From Actinoplanes oblitus (GTDB lineage: Bacteria > Actinomycetota > Actinomycetes > Mycobacteriales > Micromonosporaceae): a stretch of DNA of 64,000 nt. The DNA is taken from the NCBI RefSeq assembly GCF_030252345.1, contig NZ_CP126980.1, forward strand, positions 4,851,501 through 4,915,500. Direction: 5' to 3'. Shown one piece after another: positions 12,758 through 18,801 of the stretch; the stretch's first letter is position 1; each line of letters starts with the position of its first letter. The notes beneath the pieces are model-generated. The model saw only the letters and a list, made by a program, of their open reading frames with translations, had not been told where the DNA came from and ran no database searches. The translations under genes were made by a program, and so were the position numbers.

Positions 12758-13792
12758 ATGATCGCGTCTGGACGGGGATTTGCGCTGCTCACACCACCTA
12801 TCGAACCGATGCGGGCCGTGCCGACCGGCGGCCTGCACGAGCCGCGCACCCGTGGCACCCCGCAGTACGAGGTCAAGTGGGACGGGTGGCGCTGCGTCGC
12901 GTTCTGCGGCAAGGACATCCACCTGCAGTCGCGGCAGGGCAGCGACCTGACCCGCTTCTACCCGGACGTCGTGGCCCACCTGGACGCGGCGCTGTTCCCG
13001 GACACCGTGCTGGACGGTGAGCTCGTCGTCTGGGATCCGGCCGCCGGGCGTACCTCGTTCGCGGCGCTGCAACGCCGGGCGGTCGCCGGCCGGGACCTGT
13101 CGGCCGAGGTGCGCGCCCGTCCCGCCTCGCTCGTGGTGTTCGACCTGCTCCAGCTCGACGGCGTCGAACTGCTCGACCGGCCGCTGCTGGAACGCCGCAT
13201 GCTGCTCGAAGAACTCTGCGACGGCCTGGCCGGCATCACCGTGTGCCCGGCGACCCGCGACCCGGACGAGGCGCGCCGCTGGTTCGACGACCTCGCCGCC
13301 ACCGGCTGCGAAGGCCTCGTGATCAAGGACTTGACCAGCCGATACGCGCCGGGTGGCAGGGGTTGGTGGAAGTGGCGGCGGCGGACCACGACGGAGGCGG
13401 TGGTCGGGGGAGTGGTGGGCGCCGCGGACCGGCCGACCGGCCTGCTGCTCGGCCGGTTCACGCCGTCCGGACGGCTGCACTACGTCGGCCAGAGCACGCC
13501 GCTGACCGCCCGCGCCGGTGCGGAGCTGGGCGCGCTGCTCACCCCGGCCGGCCCGGACCATCCGTGGCCGCAGCCGTTGCCGGCCGGGTGGACCGGCCGG
13601 TTCGATCGCCGGGAGCCGCAGCCGTTCGTCGCCGTCACCCCGGACACGGTCGTCGAGATCGCCGTCGACGAGGCCGCCGAGAACGGCCGCTGGCGCCACC
13701 CGGTCCGCTACGTCCGCCCCCGGCTGGAGTTGCCGGCGTCCCGGCTGCCGCCGTGGTCACCGGCCGGTCTGGACGCCGACAGGATCAGCTGA
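12758..13792 (+). CDS. ATP-dependent DNA ligase (LigC-like)
   Basis: A 344-residue ligase made of an adenylation domain and an OB fold. The nucleophile lysine is in motif I KWDGWR (K40); motif III (LVVFDLLQLDG), motif IV (EGLVIKDL) and motif V (WWKWRRR) follow in order, then a C-terminal OB domain. Size fits the compact actinobacterial LigC/LigD-ligase class used in non-homologous or base-excision repair rather than replication. No Ku or polymerase gene is adjacent. Its 3' end overlaps the convergent MFS gene by 8 bases. Confidence 0.9.
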   Translation: MIASGRGFALLTPPIEPMRAVPTGGLHEPRTRGTPQYEVKWDGWRCVAFCGKDIHLQSRQGSDLTRFYPDVVAHLDAALFPDTVLDGELVVWDPAAGRTSFAALQRRAVAGRDLSAEVRARPASLVVFDLLQLDGVELLDRPLLERRMLLEELCDGLAGITVCPATRDPDEARRWFDDLAATGCEGLVIKDLTSRYAPGGRGWWKWRRRTTTEAVVGGVVGAADRPTGLLLGRFTPSGRLHYVGQSTPLTARAGAELGALLTPAGPDHPWPQPLPAGWTGRFDRREPQPFVAVTPDTVVEIAVDEAAENGRWRHPVRYVRPRLELPASRLPPWSPAGLDADRIS

Positions 13793-15053
13793 TCGGCGAT
13801 CGCCCATCCGGCCGGTCCGCGCGGTGGAACGGCGTGGCGGCGCGGGCCAGGATGCCGGCGGCGGCGATCAGGCACAGCCCGCCGACGGTGGCCAGGACGG
13901 CCGGATAGCCACCGGTGCGGGTGTAGAGCCCGGCGGCGGCCAGCGGCGCGGCCGCTTTGGCGATGGTCACCGGGGCGGCGAGGGTGCCGGCGATGCTGGC
14001 ATAGGCGGTGGTGCCGTACCGGTCGGCGAGCAGGGCGGGGCTGGTGAGGCTGGACACGCCGAACCCGATGCCGAAGCCGGTCACCGCGATCACCGCACCG
14101 AGCCGGGTGCCGGCCGCCCAGGGCAGGCTGAGCGCGGCGGTGGCCTGCACGGTGAAGACGACGGCGACCACCCGGGCCAGCGGCACGCGGCGCTGTGCCA
14201 CGGTGAGCACGATGCGGCCGGTGACCGACAGGACACCCAGCAGCCCGGCCACCGTCGCCGCGAACGTCGCCGGATGTCCCGCCCGGGTCAGGACGCCGAC
14301 CAGGTGCACGGTCATCGTGCTCATCGCCGCGGCGTGCGCGACGAAGGCGGTCGCCAGGCACCAGAACCGGCCGTCCCGCAGCGCCGCCCGCACCAGGGTG
14401 CGCCGCAGCGCTCCGCTGGACCGCTCGGCCGGCCGTGCGGGGTGGTGCGGTGGCCGGCGTATCAGCAGGGCGTGCAGCGGGATGGCGATCAGCCCGTAGA
14501 CGGCGGCCAGCACCAGCAGGGTGACCCGCCAGCCGAGGCGTTCGTTGAGCAGGCCGGTCAGCGGCATGAAGATGGTGCTGGCGAACCCGGCGACCACGAT
14601 CATCGCCAGGATCGCCCGCGAGCGCCGGGAGCTGTCGAACCAGGAGACGACGACGGCGGTGGCCGCGTCGTAGAGCGCCATGGCCATCGCGGCACCGAGG
14701 CCGGCGAACACGAGATACAGCTGCCACAGCGTGTGCACCCGGGACCAGGCCACGAGCAGAACGGTGCCGGCGACCGACCCGGCGGTCATCAGGGAGCGCC
14801 CGCCGTGCCGGTCCAGCCACCGTCCGACGGGCACCGCCATGGCCGCCCAGGCGAGCACCGCGATGGTGAGCGCTCCGGTGGTCGCCGCGGTGGAGGTGCG
14901 CAGGTCGGCGGCGACCGGGTGCAGCAGCACCGCGAAGCTGTAGTAGAGGGCGCCGTACCCCACGGTCTGGGTGATCGCGAGCGCCGCGACGATGCGCCAG
15001 CCGCGCCGGTGACCGCGCGTGGGCGCGGCCACCGGCGATTGCCGGGTGTCCAC
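13785..15053 (-). CDS. MFS transporter of the arsenic-type cluster
   Basis: A 422-residue, 12-helix major facilitator. The loop 2-3 motif is GRWLDRHGGRSLM, and the helix 4-5 region has the long basic central loop RRPPHHPARPAERSSGALRR between helices 6 and 7. It is the last gene of a minus-strand set (CCG peptide, ArsR, acetyltransferase, flavoprotein, MFS) and starts only 6 bases after the flavoprotein stop, so co-transcription is very likely. In that setting it probably exports an arsenical, but a substrate cannot be read from the sequence. Confidence 0.85.
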   Translation of the reverse strand: MDTRQSPVAAPTRGHRRGWRIVAALAITQTVGYGALYYSFAVLLHPVAADLRTSTAATTGALTIAVLAWAAMAVPVGRWLDRHGGRSLMTAGSVAGTVLLVAWSRVHTLWQLYLVFAGLGAAMAMALYDAATAVVVSWFDSSRRSRAILAMIVVAGFASTIFMPLTGLLNERLGWRVTLLVLAAVYGLIAIPLHALLIRRPPHHPARPAERSSGALRRTLVRAALRDGRFWCLATAFVAHAAAMSTMTVHLVGVLTRAGHPATFAATVAGLLGVLSVTGRIVLTVAQRRVPLARVVAVVFTVQATAALSLPWAAGTRLGAVIAVTGFGIGFGVSSLTSPALLADRYGTTAYASIAGTLAAPVTIAKAAAPLAAAGLYTRTGGYPAVLATVGGLCLIAAAGILARAATPFHRADRPDGRSPIS

Positions 15054-15059
15054 CGGTGG

Positions 15060-16418
15060 TCAGCCGCAGCAGCCGTCACCCGCCCGGGCCGCCGGCGGGG
15101 TGCGGTCGACGACGGTCAGCGGCGAGCTGAGCAGGCCGCCGGCGATACCGGTGGCCAGGCCGCGCCCGGCCGGCTGGGCCACCGGGTTGCTGTTGCAGAC
15201 GCCGGTCTCGGGCAGGTCGAGCTGGACCTCGCGGGCGGCGTCCCAGTCACCGGCCAGCGCGGCGACCACCGACCGGGCCTGCTCGTAGCCGGTGGCGAGC
15301 AGGAACGTCGGTGCCCGCCCGTAACTCTTGGAGCCGATGGCGTAGTACCCGGGCTCGGGATGGCTCAGCTCGTCGGCGCCGTGCGGCGGCACGGTGCCGC
15401 AGGAGTGCTCGTTCGGGTCGATCAGCGGTGCGAGCGCCCGGGTGGACCCGACGACCGGGTCGAGGTCCAGGCGCAGCTCGCCGGTGATCGTGTGATCCGG
15501 GCGGAACCCGGTCGCCGCCACGATCCGGTCGACGGTGACCTCGCGGGTTCCGTCGGACACCACCACCGCGTCCCCGGTGGGCGTGAGGCGCTGCACGCCG
15601 AACCCGGTGAGCAGGGTGATCGCGCCGGACTCGACGTGCTCGCGCAGGCGGCTGCCGATCGCGCCGCGGGCCGGGAGCGCGTCGGCGGTCTGCCCGCCGT
15701 AGGTGCGCGCCGGGCTCGCCGCGCGGATCGCCCAGGTCACGCTCGTGCCGGGCGCCCGCTCGGCGAGATCGGCGAGGGCGAGCAGGGTGTTGGCTGCCGA
15801 GTGCCCGGCGCCGGCAACGAGGATCCGGCGGCCGGCGAAGCGGTGGCGGTCGCGGCCGAGCACGTCCGGCAGGGCCGTGTCGATGCGGTCGGCCACATCG
15901 CGTTCGCCGTGGGCCGGGATGCCGGCCGCGCCGAGCACGTTCGGCGTGGACCAGGTACCGGAGGCGTCGATCACCGCGCGGGCGAGCAGGTCCTCGCCGG
16001 TGGCCAGCCGGACCAGCAGCGGGGTGTCCGCGCGGCCGGTGCTCCGCAGCCGGTCGAGGCCGAGCCGGGTGATCGCGGCGACGCGGGCGCCGTACCGGAT
16101 ATCGTCCTTGATCGCGGGCAGGCCGGCGAGAGGCCGCAGGTAGTCGTCGGCGAGCTGGGCCCCGGTGGGCAGTTCGTCGTCGCCGGGCCGGATCCAGCCG
16201 GCGGCGGTGAGCAGCCGGGCGGCGGCCGGGTCGATGTTGAACCGCCACGGCGAGAACAGCCGGACGTGGCCCCACTGGCGGATGGCGGCGGCCGGGGCGT
16301 CGCCGGCCTCCAGGACGATTCGGGGCAGGCCGCGTTCGGCGAGGTGGGCGGCGGCGGCCAGGCCGACGGGTCCGGCGCCGATGACGACGACGGGCAGCTG
16401 GTCAAGCGGGATGGTCAC
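15060..16418 (-). CDS. FAD/NAD(P)-dependent flavoprotein ending in Cys-Cys-Gly (ArsO-like context)
   Basis: A 452-residue two-dinucleotide-binding flavoprotein. The FAD motif VIGAGPVGLAAAAHL is at about 11-25 and a second nucleotide motif ILVAGAGHSAAN near 200; an ATGFRPDH motif typical of this monooxygenase/thioredoxin-reductase-like family lies near 325. The extreme C-terminus is GDGCCG, a vicinal cysteine pair also repeated in the small peptide of the same locus, which suggests thiol chemistry on a soft metalloid. ArsO-type flavoproteins occur in arsenic operons but their reactions are not firmly known. Confidence 0.82.
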   Translation of the reverse strand: MTIPLDQLPVVVIGAGPVGLAAAAHLAERGLPRIVLEAGDAPAAAIRQWGHVRLFSPWRFNIDPAAARLLTAAGWIRPGDDELPTGAQLADDYLRPLAGLPAIKDDIRYGARVAAITRLGLDRLRSTGRADTPLLVRLATGEDLLARAVIDASGTWSTPNVLGAAGIPAHGERDVADRIDTALPDVLGRDRHRFAGRRILVAGAGHSAANTLLALADLAERAPGTSVTWAIRAASPARTYGGQTADALPARGAIGSRLREHVESGAITLLTGFGVQRLTPTGDAVVVSDGTREVTVDRIVAATGFRPDHTITGELRLDLDPVVGSTRALAPLIDPNEHSCGTVPPHGADELSHPEPGYYAIGSKSYGRAPTFLLATGYEQARSVVAALAGDWDAAREVQLDLPETGVCNSNPVAQPAGRGLATGIAGGLLSSPLTVVDRTPPAARAGDGCCG

Positions 16419-16452: not shown

Positions 16453-16959
16453 TCAGTGGATGTGTGGGCTGCGGCGTTCGATGAAGACGGTGTCCCGCCA
16501 TCGGTTGCCGCGCGCCGGGTGGCGGGCCACCTTTTCGCGTACGCCGACGACGCGGAACCCGGCAGCGCGGTGCAGCGCGAGGCTGGCGGTGTTCTCCGGG
16601 AAGATCGCTGACTGGACGGTCCAGATCCCGGCCGCCTCCGTCGAGGCGATCAGCGCGTCGAGCAGGGCGCGGCCGACGCCCCGGCCGCGCGCGCCGGGGT
16701 CGACGTAGACGGAGTGCTCGACCACCCCCGCGTACGCGGGCCGGGCCGAGACGGCGGACACCGCGACCCAGCCGAGCAGAGCCCCGGCGGCGTCGATGGC
16801 GACGTGCCGGTGGCCGGGCAGCCGGCTCGCGTCGAACGCCGCCCAGGACGGAGCACGGAGCTCGAAAGTGGCGTCACCGCCGTCGATCCCGGCCTGGTAG
16901 ATGGCGAGCACCTGGGCGGCGTCACCGGCGTCCATCGCCCGCAGGGTCACCAGGCTCAT
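16453..16959 (-). CDS. GNAT N-acetyltransferase, ArsN1/phosphinothricin-acetyltransferase type
   Basis: About 168 residues. The order of motifs matches the ArsN1/PAT group: ATFELRAPSWAAFD, LGWVAVSAVSARPAYAGVVE, the acetyl-CoA loop ARGRGVGRALL, then IFPENTASLALHRAAGFRVVG and a final RWRDTVFIERRS. ArsN1 enzymes acetylate the amine of arsinothricin, an organoarsenical antibiotic; PAT relatives act on phosphinothricin. The ATG at 16959 overlaps the stop of the upstream arsR gene (ATGA), so it is translationally coupled to a metalloid sensor, which favours the arsenical role. Confidence 0.82.
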   Translation of the reverse strand: MSLVTLRAMDAGDAAQVLAIYQAGIDGGDATFELRAPSWAAFDASRLPGHRHVAIDAAGALLGWVAVSAVSARPAYAGVVEHSVYVDPGARGRGVGRALLDALIASTEAAGIWTVQSAIFPENTASLALHRAAGFRVVGVREKVARHPARGNRWRDTVFIERRSPHIH

Positions 16960-17285
16960 CCGCAGCTCCCGGCGACGGCCGGCGCGGGCTTGCCCATGAC
17001 GAGGTCGGCGGCGGACGGGAAGCACTCGACGCAGGCGGTGTTGATCCGGTAGTGGCGGGCGTTGCCGACCGCCTCGACCAGGACGAACCGCACCTCGGTG
17101 AGGATTTTCAGGTGCTGCGAGACGGTGGACTGGGCGAGCCCGGCGGCGGCGACGATCTCGCCGACCGGCATCGGCCGGTGCTGCCGGGCCAGGTATTCCA
17201 CGATCTGCACCCGTGACGGATCCGCGAGCGCCCGGAACCAGGACGCGTACGTCTCCGCTGTCGTCCGATCGAGAAGGTCTGCCAT
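16956..17285 (-). CDS. ArsR/SmtB-family repressor 1
   Basis: About 109 residues from the ATG at 17285; an ATG at 17309 would begin inside the operator palindrome and is rejected. The winged helix has ALADPSRVQIVEYL and the recognition helix QSTVSQHLKIL. Candidate thiol ligands are C85 and C88 (TACVECF) plus C108 in a terminal SCG, a layout unlike the classical CVC site. Likely senses a thiophilic metal(loid) and controls the acetyltransferase-flavoprotein-MFS genes. Confidence 0.85.
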   Translation of the reverse strand: MADLLDRTTAETYASWFRALADPSRVQIVEYLARQHRPMPVGEIVAAAGLAQSTVSQHLKILTEVRFVLVEAVGNARHYRINTACVECFPSAADLVMGKPAPAVAGSCG

Positions 17286-17327: not shown

Positions 17328-17361
17328 ACTCTACGCGTAGCCTGCGCCGCGAACCAGCGGG

Positions 17362-17565
17362 TCATCCGCAGCAGCCCTGGTTCGCGGCGACCGCCTCGGT
17401 CTTCGCCGCGCTGCCGCAGCAGGAGCCCTCCGCGGTGGCCTCCGCCGCGGTGCCGCAGCACGGGTCGGCCGCAACCGGCGCCGCGGCTGTCGCCGTGCTC
17501 CCGCAGCAGTCGCCCCGGCTCGGCGTGGCGGCCAGGTCGCCGGTCGTGGCGGTGGTGTCGCTCAT
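17362..17565 (-). CDS. small Cys-Cys-Gly repeat peptide, putative metalloid-binding protein
   Basis: A 67-residue peptide from an ATG with a good GAGGGAGA ribosome site. It holds four Cys-Cys-Gly motifs (Cys pairs at 20-21, 36-37, 49-50 and 65-66, the last at the C-terminus) spaced by 13-16 residues of Ala/Thr/Glu-rich sequence. There are no other cysteines, aromatic residues or predicted helices of note. Vicinal thiols bind As(III) and Sb(III) well (as in ArsD), so a buffering or chaperone role is plausible. It lies between two arsR genes, divergent from arsR2 and upstream of arsR1, and the flavoprotein ends in the same motif. I know of no named family. Confidence 0.8.
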   Translation of the reverse strand: MSDTTATTGDLAATPSRGDCCGSTATAAAPVAADPCCGTAAEATAEGSCCGSAAKTEAVAANQGCCG

Positions 17566-17610
17566 GTCGCATCTCCCTCGAACGCTGGACTCGATTCGAC
17601 AGCCATCGGA

Positions 17611-17626
17611 TTCGACGTCTGTCGAA
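17611..17626. promoter_or_regulatory. ArsR-type operator, copy 1
   Basis: TTCGAC (17611-17616), GTCT, GTCGAA (17621-17626): perfect 6-4-6 palindrome in the gap between the CCG peptide and arsR2. Confidence 0.65.
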
Positions 17627-17644: not shown

Positions 17645-17660
17645 TTCGATATTTGTCAAA
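17645..17660. promoter_or_regulatory. ArsR-type operator, copy 2
   Basis: TTCGAT (17645-17650), ATTT, GTCAAA (17655-17660): same 6-4-6 geometry as the copy at 17611 with one degenerate pair per arm, ending 8 bases before the arsR2 start. Confidence 0.6.
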
Positions 17661-17668
17661 CTCGCCTT

Positions 17669-18019
17669 GTGTCAAAGCCAGCCGTTCCGGTGACCCTCGC
17701 AACGCCCTGCTGCCCGCCGATGGCCGTCCAGCGGGTCGAGGCCGCCGTCGCGGTCACCCTCTCCGGCGCGTTCAAGGCGCTCGCCGACCCGGTCCGCCTG
17801 CAGCTCATGTCGATGATCGCGTCGGCGCCCGGCGGCGAGGTCTGCGTCTGCGACCTCACACCCGCCTTCGAGGTCTCCGACTCGACCATCTCGCACCACC
17901 TCAAGGTGCTGCGCGAGGCCGGTCTGGTCGACGCCGAGCGCCGGGCCAGCTGGGTCTACTACCGGCCCCGGCCGGAGCTCATGCGGCAGCTGTCCACGCT
18001 GCTGTCGCCGGACGCCTGA
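17669..18019 (+). CDS. ArsR repressor 2 with classical CVC arsenic site
   Basis: About 116 residues from the GTG at 17669. It contains the classical ArsR metalloid signature VCVCDL (C59, C61) at the start of the DNA-binding helix pair, then SDSTISHHLKVLREAGLV. A further vicinal pair, PCCPP at residues 13-17, resembles the N-terminal ligands of actinobacterial ArsR proteins with an alternative As(III) site. The start lies just after an operator, so autoregulation is expected. It precedes the TSUP permease by 50 bases on the same strand. Confidence 0.9.
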   Translation: MSKPAVPVTLATPCCPPMAVQRVEAAVAVTLSGAFKALADPVRLQLMSMIASAPGGEVCVCDLTPAFEVSDSTISHHLKVLREAGLVDAERRASWVYYRPRPELMRQLSTLLSPDA

Positions 18020-18069: not shown

Positions 18070-18801
18070 GTGAGCGCTGATCAGGTGCTGACCCTGACGG
18101 CGGCGTCGGCTGCCGCGTTCGGGCTGGCGGTGCTGTCCGCGGTCGCCGGGTTCGGCGGCGGGGTGTTGCTGCTGCCGGTGTTCGGCGCCCTGTTCGGCCT
18201 GCGGGTCGCGGTACCGATGCTCACCCTGACCCAACTGTCCAGCAACGGCTTCCGGGTCTGGCTCAACCGCCATGACCTGCACGGGCGGCTGATCGGCTGG
18301 TTCGCGCTCGGCGCCGTCCCACTCGCCGTCGCCGGCGGCCTGCTGCTGGCGCGTGCCCCGCTCGGCGCGCTCCAGCGGCTGCTGGGCGCCTTCCTGATCG
18401 GTGTGGTGATCTGGCGGCGGCGGCATCCGCAGCCGCGCCGACCGGCCGACCGGAGTTTCGTCGCGGTGGGCGCGGCCTCCGGCCTGGGCTCGGCCCTGCT
18501 CGGCTCGACCGGTCCGTTGACCGCCCCGTTCTTCCTGGCCTACGGCCTGACCCGGGCCGCCTACATCGGCACCGAGGCGGCCGGCGCGCTCACCATGCAT
18601 CTGTCCAAGATCTTCGGGTACGGCGCGGGTGACCTGCTCACCGAGCAGGTGCTGCGCTACGGCCTGGCGCTGACCCCGGCCACCCTGGCCGGGGCGTGGG
18701 TGGGCAAGCGGATCGTCGGCCGGATCAGCGAGCGCACCTTCGTGTTCCTCGTCGAGGCCGGCCTGGTCGTCGCCGGCGCGCTCTTCCTCATCGGCTGGTG
18801 A
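18070..18801 (+). CDS. TSUP (TauE/SafE) family membrane permease
   Basis: A 243-residue integral membrane protein with about seven to eight hydrophobic segments and the family glycine motif VAGFGGGVLLLPVF near residues 24-37; the second half repeats the topology after a cytosolic RRRHPQPRRPADR loop. TSUP proteins move small sulphur-containing or organic anions. Its position behind arsR2 suggests it is metalloid-induced, perhaps exporting a thiolated or organic arsenic anion, but that is inference. GTG start at 18070. Confidence 0.85.
   Translation: MSADQVLTLTAASAAAFGLAVLSAVAGFGGGVLLLPVFGALFGLRVAVPMLTLTQLSSNGFRVWLNRHDLHGRLIGWFALGAVPLAVAGGLLLARAPLGALQRLLGAFLIGVVIWRRRHPQPRRPADRSFVAVGAASGLGSALLGSTGPLTAPFFLAYGLTRAAYIGTEAAGALTMHLSKIFGYGAGDLLTEQVLRYGLALTPATLAGAWVGKRIVGRISERTFVFLVEAGLVVAGALFLIGW

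Follow-up and report, generated by a model that had tools for sequence, protein, structure and literature searches.

NmerA is a folded GMTCxxC domain, and ArsD is, to our knowledge, the sole arsenic metallochaperone. In MerA, Hg2+ is captured by the N-terminal domain and handed on to a flexible cysteine pair at the C-terminus, according to the accessible text of PMC10587081; ArsD has vicinal cysteine pairs at Cys12-13 and Cys112-113 (accessible text of PMC2440759), and ArsI binds trivalent organoarsenicals at its Cys98-99 pair (accessible text of PMC6514093).

A locus of Actinoplanes oblitus encodes a short peptide with four Cys-Cys-Gly (CCG) motifs, and genome comparison shows its C-terminal part to be a mobile thiol module tied to arsenic enzymes and strongly suggests its function. 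Because this module is joined to three different arsenic enzymes, the family probably catches arsenic and hands it to enzymes of the fused types. The system resembles NmerA and MerA in pairing a small thiol unit, which may stand free or be the N-terminus of a flavoprotein, with a flexible C-terminal cysteine pair on the flavoprotein (for the MerA side, accessible text of PMC10587081). The module is the N-terminus of the flavoprotein in at least 14 fusion loci, and most of these fused flavoproteins also end in CC. It differs in that the CCG peptide has no sequence match to either, its pairs lie within a low-complexity peptide, its context is arsenic, and the flavoprotein of the window type is predicted from a structure model to be FMO/YpdA-like in fold, unlike MerA. 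NmerA with the Cys-Cys tail of MerA is thus the closest working analogy, not a homologue.

Like ArsD, an As(III) metallochaperone, the CCG peptide is a small ars-operon protein with vicinal cysteine pairs, but its module is fused to enzymes, none of its recurrent neighbours was seen to be an ArsA-type gene, and membership of the ArsD family (PF06953) was rejected for lack of any match in Pfam or NCBIfam. It shares a short, thiol-rich form with metallothionein and phytochelatin buffers, but its CCG pairs stand 13-16 residues apart, it occurs fused to enzymes and no Pfam family exceeds its cut-off; membership of metallothionein families was likewise rejected, with no family match in Pfam or NCBIfam. 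The C-As lyase ArsI and ArsM also make use of vicinal or clustered cysteines, but the present case differs from ArsI or ArsM with extra cysteines in that one 31-residue CCG module is shared by ArsI-type proteins (C-terminus), ArsM (N-terminus) and a free peptide.

The CCG peptide gene and its neighbours

The window, meaning the whole stretch of 64,000 nucleotides of Actinoplanes oblitus analysed here, contains the following features around the CCG peptide gene:

13785..15053, minus strand: MFS transporter resembling ArsK (MFS_1 above cut-off)
15060..16418, minus strand: FAD/NAD(P)-type flavoprotein (Pyr_redox_3, 61.7 bits, cut-off 30)
16453..16959, minus strand: GNAT acetyltransferase resembling ArsN1 (ArsN1a the best NCBIfam model)
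16956..17285, minus strand: arsR1, ArsR/SmtB-family regulator (HTH_metalloreg, 76.3 bits, cut-off 55)
17345..17389, minus strand: 13-bp perfect hairpin over the stop codon of the CCG peptide gene, before arsR1; no T-run
17362..17565, minus strand: CCG peptide gene, 67 aa, ATG start, four CCG
17595..17610, no strand assigned: weaker operator copy, one mismatch
17611..17626, no strand assigned: palindromic operator TTCGACAGACGTCGAA (minus-strand reading), perfect on both strands
17645..17660, no strand assigned: operator TTTGACAAATATCGAA (minus-strand reading), which overlaps a TTGACA element; one strand matches perfectly and the other has one mismatch
17669..18019, plus strand: arsR2, divergent ArsR with an N-terminal CC as well as a CVC motif (HTH_metalloreg, 93.5 bits, cut-off 55)
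18070..18801, plus strand: TauE/SafE-type permease after arsR2 (PF01925, 93.1 bits, cut-off 32.6)

The original prediction of a 67-residue peptide whose only cysteines form four CCG motifs was confirmed, with all eight cysteines falling within these motifs. Its further claims of regular spacing, a C-terminal last motif and a ribosome site also held, as the steps from CC to CC are 16, 13 and 16 residues, the peptide ends with its fourth CCG and GAGGGAG lies a few bases upstream of the ATG in the window sequence. The last three pairs constitute a C-terminal module of 31 residues (36-66).

Shuffling the residues of the peptide gave three or more CCG motifs in 9 of 400,000 cases, and among the 904 frames of the window (stop to stop, at least 30 aa) four contain at least two CCG and one, the CCG peptide with its four, contains more than two. 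The peptide gave a single match in its own genome at E <= 0.001. Since the frame is kept in other genomes, 17362-17565 is a genuine gene, and an antisense or chance frame was ruled out by this conservation and by the fusion of the frame to enzymes elsewhere. Against a tandem-repeat origin, Tandem Repeats Finder returned 0 rows; a second repeat search found three 39-nt copies of 72-74% identity around three of the CCG motifs, making an old duplication possible.

The minus-strand series runs, 5' to 3', from the CCG peptide through arsR1, GNAT and flavoprotein to MFS, with arsR1 beginning 76 nt downstream of the CCG peptide and overlapped by the GNAT gene by 4 nt, while arsR2 and the TauE-type permease diverge from it; the two flanking arsR genes that had been described were recovered. 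The arsR2 product scored 104 bits against an Rv2640c-type model (cut-off 155). Cut-offs were not reached by the GNAT protein against the ArsN1 model NF040503 (120.9 bits, cut-off 170), by the flavoprotein against the ArsO model NF040505 (58.4 bits, cut-off 425) or by the MFS protein against the ArsK model NF033733 (171.3 bits, cut-off 400), and these neighbours are accordingly termed ArsN1-like, ArsO-like at most and ArsK-like. The flavoprotein of the window ends in GDGCCG. The TauE/SafE-type permease occupies the position usually taken by arsC and aquaporin in the loci of relatives; in the same genome, arsC, aquaporin and an ArsR-ArsC fusion lie about 0.49 Mb away, around 4362690-4363854 and adjoining (L272, L273), indicating that the usual divergent locus is split in Actinoplanes oblitus.

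Two TTYGACNNNNRTCRAA palindromes lie between the CCG peptide and arsR2. Allowing up to one mismatch, the window contains 6 operator strand matches, five of which fall in this gap, against a mean of 0.68 in shuffles of the whole window. TTGACA and TCGAA elements recur upstream of the CCG peptides of relatives, including those of Streptomyces. The arsR1 side of the CCG peptide has no operator copy and holds only the 13-bp perfect hairpin, so the claim of operators on both sides is half supported: it stands for the arsR2 side, with its two palindromes and one-mismatch site, and is weak for the arsR1 side. The hairpin (17345-17389) is possibly a transcript end or an attenuator, and could raise the abundance of the CCG peptide above that of the downstream proteins.

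Relatives in actinobacterial ars loci

Members of the CCG peptide family were found in ars loci of Micromonosporaceae, Amycolatopsis, Streptomycetaceae and Actinospica. At a loose E <= 0.1, 199 of the 300 same-family genomes had hits in a protein search with the peptide; many of the weaker hits look like chance. Synteny was analysed, with gene calling in Python, for 60 of the 63 listed matches at E <= 1.1e-5, excluding the own genome and leaving out G221, G201 and one of G038. These loci comprise 50 free peptides, 7 flavoprotein fusions and 3 ArsM fusions (L031 by hand).

Their usual order is arsC, aquaporin, arsC and arsR on one strand, and (50-aa protein), CCG peptide, M28 peptidase, arsR, GNAT, flavoprotein and MFS on the other. 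Among the 60 loci, arsR is present in 56, the flavoprotein in 55, arsC in 48, aquaporin in 46, MFS in 44, M28 in 36, GNAT in 32, the 50-aa protein in 15 and trxB in 10. A protein of 48-52 aa with a CDSC motif often lies just upstream of the CCG peptide (15 of 60 loci; for example L055:9019-9168 and L085:9480-9635), and that of L055 has no Pfam or NCBIfam match.

Pairs two to four (C36, C37, C49, C50, C65 and C66) are invariant and their spacing is free of gaps in 24 chosen peptides, in which C20 of the first pair is also invariant and C21 nearly so. Distant relatives from another family (f19; L091 and L092) have kept the four CCG motifs and not their spacing. Profile searches recovered the peptide in 3 of 394 class genomes and 1 of 396 phylum genomes, own included, and say little on absence because 14 candidates were scored per genome.

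No Pfam or NCBIfam model exceeds its cut-off for the CCG peptide and no PDB chain matches its profile, in agreement, for these libraries, with the earlier statement that no named family has this layout. The one Pfam hit, to the Galaxin repeat (PF24748), was rejected at 20.0 bits (cut-off 28, E 7.1e-4), this sub-threshold match probably being due to shared CC pairs; NCBIfam gave no hit. No description of the peptide was found in the literature searched, which consisted of the accessible text of sources including PMC6514093, PMC9144182, PMC10587081, PMC2440759 and PMC11719878, with subscription journals mostly outside its scope. The CCG peptides are a real, conserved small-protein family, undescribed as far as searched. 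Frame and CCG motifs have been kept near arsR in ars loci across several actinobacterial families, and the lack of such conservation, by which the original prediction would have been refuted, was not observed.

Recurrence of the module on arsenic enzymes

The C-terminal part of the peptide has the consensus CCGT..EA..AG.CC...AK.EAVA.G.GCC. A DNA-level scan of genome contigs with CCG[T/S]..........CC..............CC gave at least 119 stretches, of which at least 55 contain the module in frame (53 identified by script and, in addition, L171 and L179). These 55 or more loci belong to Micromonosporaceae, Amycolatopsis, Streptomyces, Kitasatospora, Streptacidiphilus, Actinospica, Nocardia and one unclassified actinobacterial MAG. 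An ars-type gene besides the module-bearing one is present, among the matches listed and in pieces of at most 8 kb, in 49 of 55 module loci (47 of 53 by script alone, before addition of L171 and L179) versus 0 of 64 other stretches; the module loci with no other ars-type gene among the matches listed are L159, L174, L176, L217, L255 and L271. ArsR alone accounts for 48 of 55 module loci, again among the matches listed.

The module stands at the N-terminus of the flavoprotein in at least 14 loci (12 distinct proteins) and at the N-terminus of ArsM in at least three (L034, L069 and L073), of which L034 has no flavoprotein nearby and L069, the sole ArsM fusion scanned, exceeds the cut-off of the arsenite methyltransferase model. 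It is also found at the C-terminus of ArsI/CadI-type proteins in at least 19 Nocardia loci, where the ArsI model was run on L093 and the Nocardia fusions were assigned by BLAST against the L093 protein or by resemblance; L198 and L216, whose start was called too late by the module finder, were counted as ArsI. The six-frame module finder overlooked L031, L100, L105, L171 and L179; these were included manually where stated. Other ArsI/CadI-type proteins (L093, L098, L130, L138 and L142) have CC-rich C-terminal tails, and an ArsM-like protein (L039:18240-18977) has a CC-rich N-terminus, without the spacing of the module; CC tails may be a common trait of arsenic enzymes in actinobacteria.

No free peptide was found in the 14 flavoprotein-fusion loci. 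In 6 of the 7 with wide flanks, the fused gene directly follows the divergent arsR, as the free peptide does elsewhere, and in L085 two small called frames, one of them a 51-aa CDSC protein, lie between arsR and the fused gene. In two genomes (G188 and G232) a fused flavoprotein and a free peptide coexist at separate loci, so this exclusivity holds per locus only, and G176 encodes both a fused flavoprotein and an ArsM fusion.

A plain thiol buffer similar to metallothionein or phytochelatin, soaking up trivalent metalloid until efflux with no specific enzyme contact, would suit a free peptide that is short, rich in Ala, Gly and thiols and variable in its linkers, and that is present where no flavoprotein is nearby, as in L052, which encodes peptide and MFS and no flavoprotein in its 10.7-kb contig. 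Such a buffer leaves unexplained the fusion to three enzyme types, the absence of the free peptide from flavoprotein-fusion loci and the fixed spacing of the last three pairs, and is considered unlikely. A carrier for another soft metal (Cd, Hg, Cu or Zn), with the ars context secondary, is very unlikely: vicinal thiols bind many soft metals and the ArsI family model is named ArsI/CadI heavy metal resistance, but the other ars-type gene in 49 of 55 module loci (among the matches listed) and a fusion partner that is an arsenite methyltransferase, with its model above cut-off, argue against it.

A putative carrier of trivalent arsenicals

The best explanation for these observations is that the CCG peptide acts as a free-standing thiol carrier, delivering trivalent arsenicals to the flavoprotein, a reading drawn from sequence comparison to which we give a probability of about 0.6. 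The cargo would be As(III), perhaps methylarsenite or Sb(III). Given the observed layout and operators, the metalloid would lift ArsR repression and the peptide would be made from the first gene of the operon; its cysteine pairs could then bind the metalloid and, through thiol exchange, transfer it to the flavoprotein, where the Cys-Cys tail at the C-terminus and two conserved cysteines would receive it. The flavoprotein may oxidise or otherwise transform the metalloid, using FAD and NAD(P)H, before export. The C-terminal three-pair module would be the active part, and in the observed fusions to flavoprotein, ArsM and ArsI, tethering may replace the free carrier. The original prediction had proposed a carrier handing arsenic to the flavoprotein or the transporter. 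For hand-over to the flavoprotein there is support at the genomic level, since fusions join the module to that enzyme and also to ArsM and ArsI, while nothing points to the transporter as receiver.

If this reading is true, the family would be a second kind of arsenic metallochaperone, unrelated to ArsD (role of ArsD: accessible text of PMC2440759) and present in several actinobacterial families, with a plug-in delivery domain for the flavoprotein, arsenite methylation and C-As bond cleavage. The family would also offer a handle on ars flavoproteins, and its compact thiol module might be of use in arsenic sensing or removal.

The N-terminal motif and the M28 peptidase

Most free CCG peptides start with GGF.GD.A.A(L/F), and the distance from the first G of this motif to the first CC is 18 residues in 53 of 59 motif-bearing rows, 19 in five and 17 in one. 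Counting that of the window, 68 distinct free peptides come with sufficient downstream sequence for comparison. Motif and downstream M28 gene occur together in 49 of them, three have the motif only (L052, L060 and L254), none has M28 only and 16 have neither; this table (49/3 vs 0/16) is not blind, as the motif regex was widened after three exceptions had been seen in an earlier one (50/3 vs 3/17), and the L254 exception stems from the wider rule. The N-terminal-motif patterns matched 20, 21 and 36 of 62 loci.

Five independent contrasts in motif and M28 lie on well-supported branches of a flavoprotein tree of 60 rows, and 200 pairings of these contrasts gave means of 4.7 concordant, 0.0 opposite and 0.3 without difference; the sign test on this quick tree gave a median p of 0.0625, and five pairs cannot reach p 0.05. 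Whole-genome searches for M28 picked up all 4 control genomes, which have motif and M28, and none of 16 other genomes, namely nine with motif-less free peptides (including that of the window), five with fusions and G258 and G002, two of the three motif-only exceptions. The window peptide lacks the GGF.GD motif, and the search of its genome turned up no such M28 peptidase. L060, which lies close to the window in the tree, has the motif and no M28, as would be expected if the peptidase was lost before the motif decayed.

The M28 neighbour scores 93.5 bits against PF04389 (cut-off 21.3) and has no signal peptide by eye. Its H227 and D244 are conserved in 45 of 45 sequences and its E276, E277 and D303 in 44, and these are the metal-site residues of M28 enzymes. 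The GGF.GD motif probably serves the M28 peptidase, or something else lost with it.

An N-terminal motif that is leader-like and tied to a peptidase, in an operon that also encodes a flavoprotein and an MFS transporter, would be expected if the peptide were a natural product or an exported arsenic scavenger, with M28 trimming its precursor, the flavoprotein oxidising it and MFS exporting it. The module is, against this, integral to enzymes without sign of secretion, and the window peptide and 15 other motif-less peptides are without motif and peptidase, making such a product extremely unlikely. A peptidase-dependent form of the arsenic carrier is advanced tentatively and is rather doubtful: a dedicated cytoplasmic M28 peptidase, encoded alongside the ribosomally made CCG peptide, might cut or trim the GGF.GD.A.A tag, with the first CCG at its near-fixed distance, in order to activate the arsenic-loaded peptide, hand it over or recycle it, while the three-pair module would serve as a portable arsenic-delivery domain for at least three enzyme families. 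The link to M28 would represent an unexpected maturation or recycling step that is open to direct testing.

The flavoprotein

The flavoprotein is present in 122 of 394 class genomes (E <= 1e-60) and in 122 plasmid records; the 15 plasmid records listed are annotated as FAD-dependent oxidoreductase (six), NAD(P)-binding (four) and secreted protein (one), with four unannotated. Sixty stretches were taken for the listed class matches, mostly the strongest and not all of them. Cys340 is kept in 134 of 138 sequences, and so is Cys408. A C-terminal CC is found in 66 of 77 flavoproteins with the module in their locus versus 18 of 56 without, a comparison uncorrected for kinship in which the second group comes from more distant families. 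The remaining 38 of the 56 have neither module nor CC tail, and the peptide is therefore unneeded for the chemistry of the flavoprotein. The CC tail is also absent from the flavoproteins of L254, L081, L075, L087 and others, including those of two of the 14 fusion loci (L075 and L087), and the flavoproteins adjoining the Streptomyces and Kitasatospora peptides have a single C at the end.

A structure model built from 22 sequences (mean pLDDT 75.5) gave the core fold only; the solved structures closest to it in fold are those of thioredoxin-reductase-like, YpdA and N-hydroxylating monooxygenase enzymes. Confidence is low at 335-343, around Cys340, and at 404-452, which includes the CC tail; residues 404-452 appear disordered in the model, as a mobile arm would be, which proves nothing, and docking of the tail is neither supported nor opposed by it.

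The predicted resemblance to thioredoxin-reductase-like enzymes, together with arsC in 48 of 60 loci and trxB in 10 of 60, would accord with a dithiol redox relay, in which the CC pairs bind no metalloid and shuttle electrons or disulfides among a thioredoxin-like system, arsenate reductases and the flavoprotein. This relay is improbable, as the module is also carried by ArsM and ArsI-type proteins and the half-locus of the window is without arsC.

Two further arrangements were observed beside flavoprotein genes. In L150 (9711-10595, by model scan) and in similar frames assigned by resemblance, ArsR and an ArsN1-like GNAT are fused beside the flavoprotein gene. In another family, a second CC-rich small protein (ACCS..LQTCCAPEDKGACCGTPA...SCGCR, 52-75 aa) is divergent from the flavoprotein gene (L093:8029-8229, L094, L095, L097, L098, L099 and L101), and the flavoproteins beside it have a start of the MSSGCCGP type and end in CCG.
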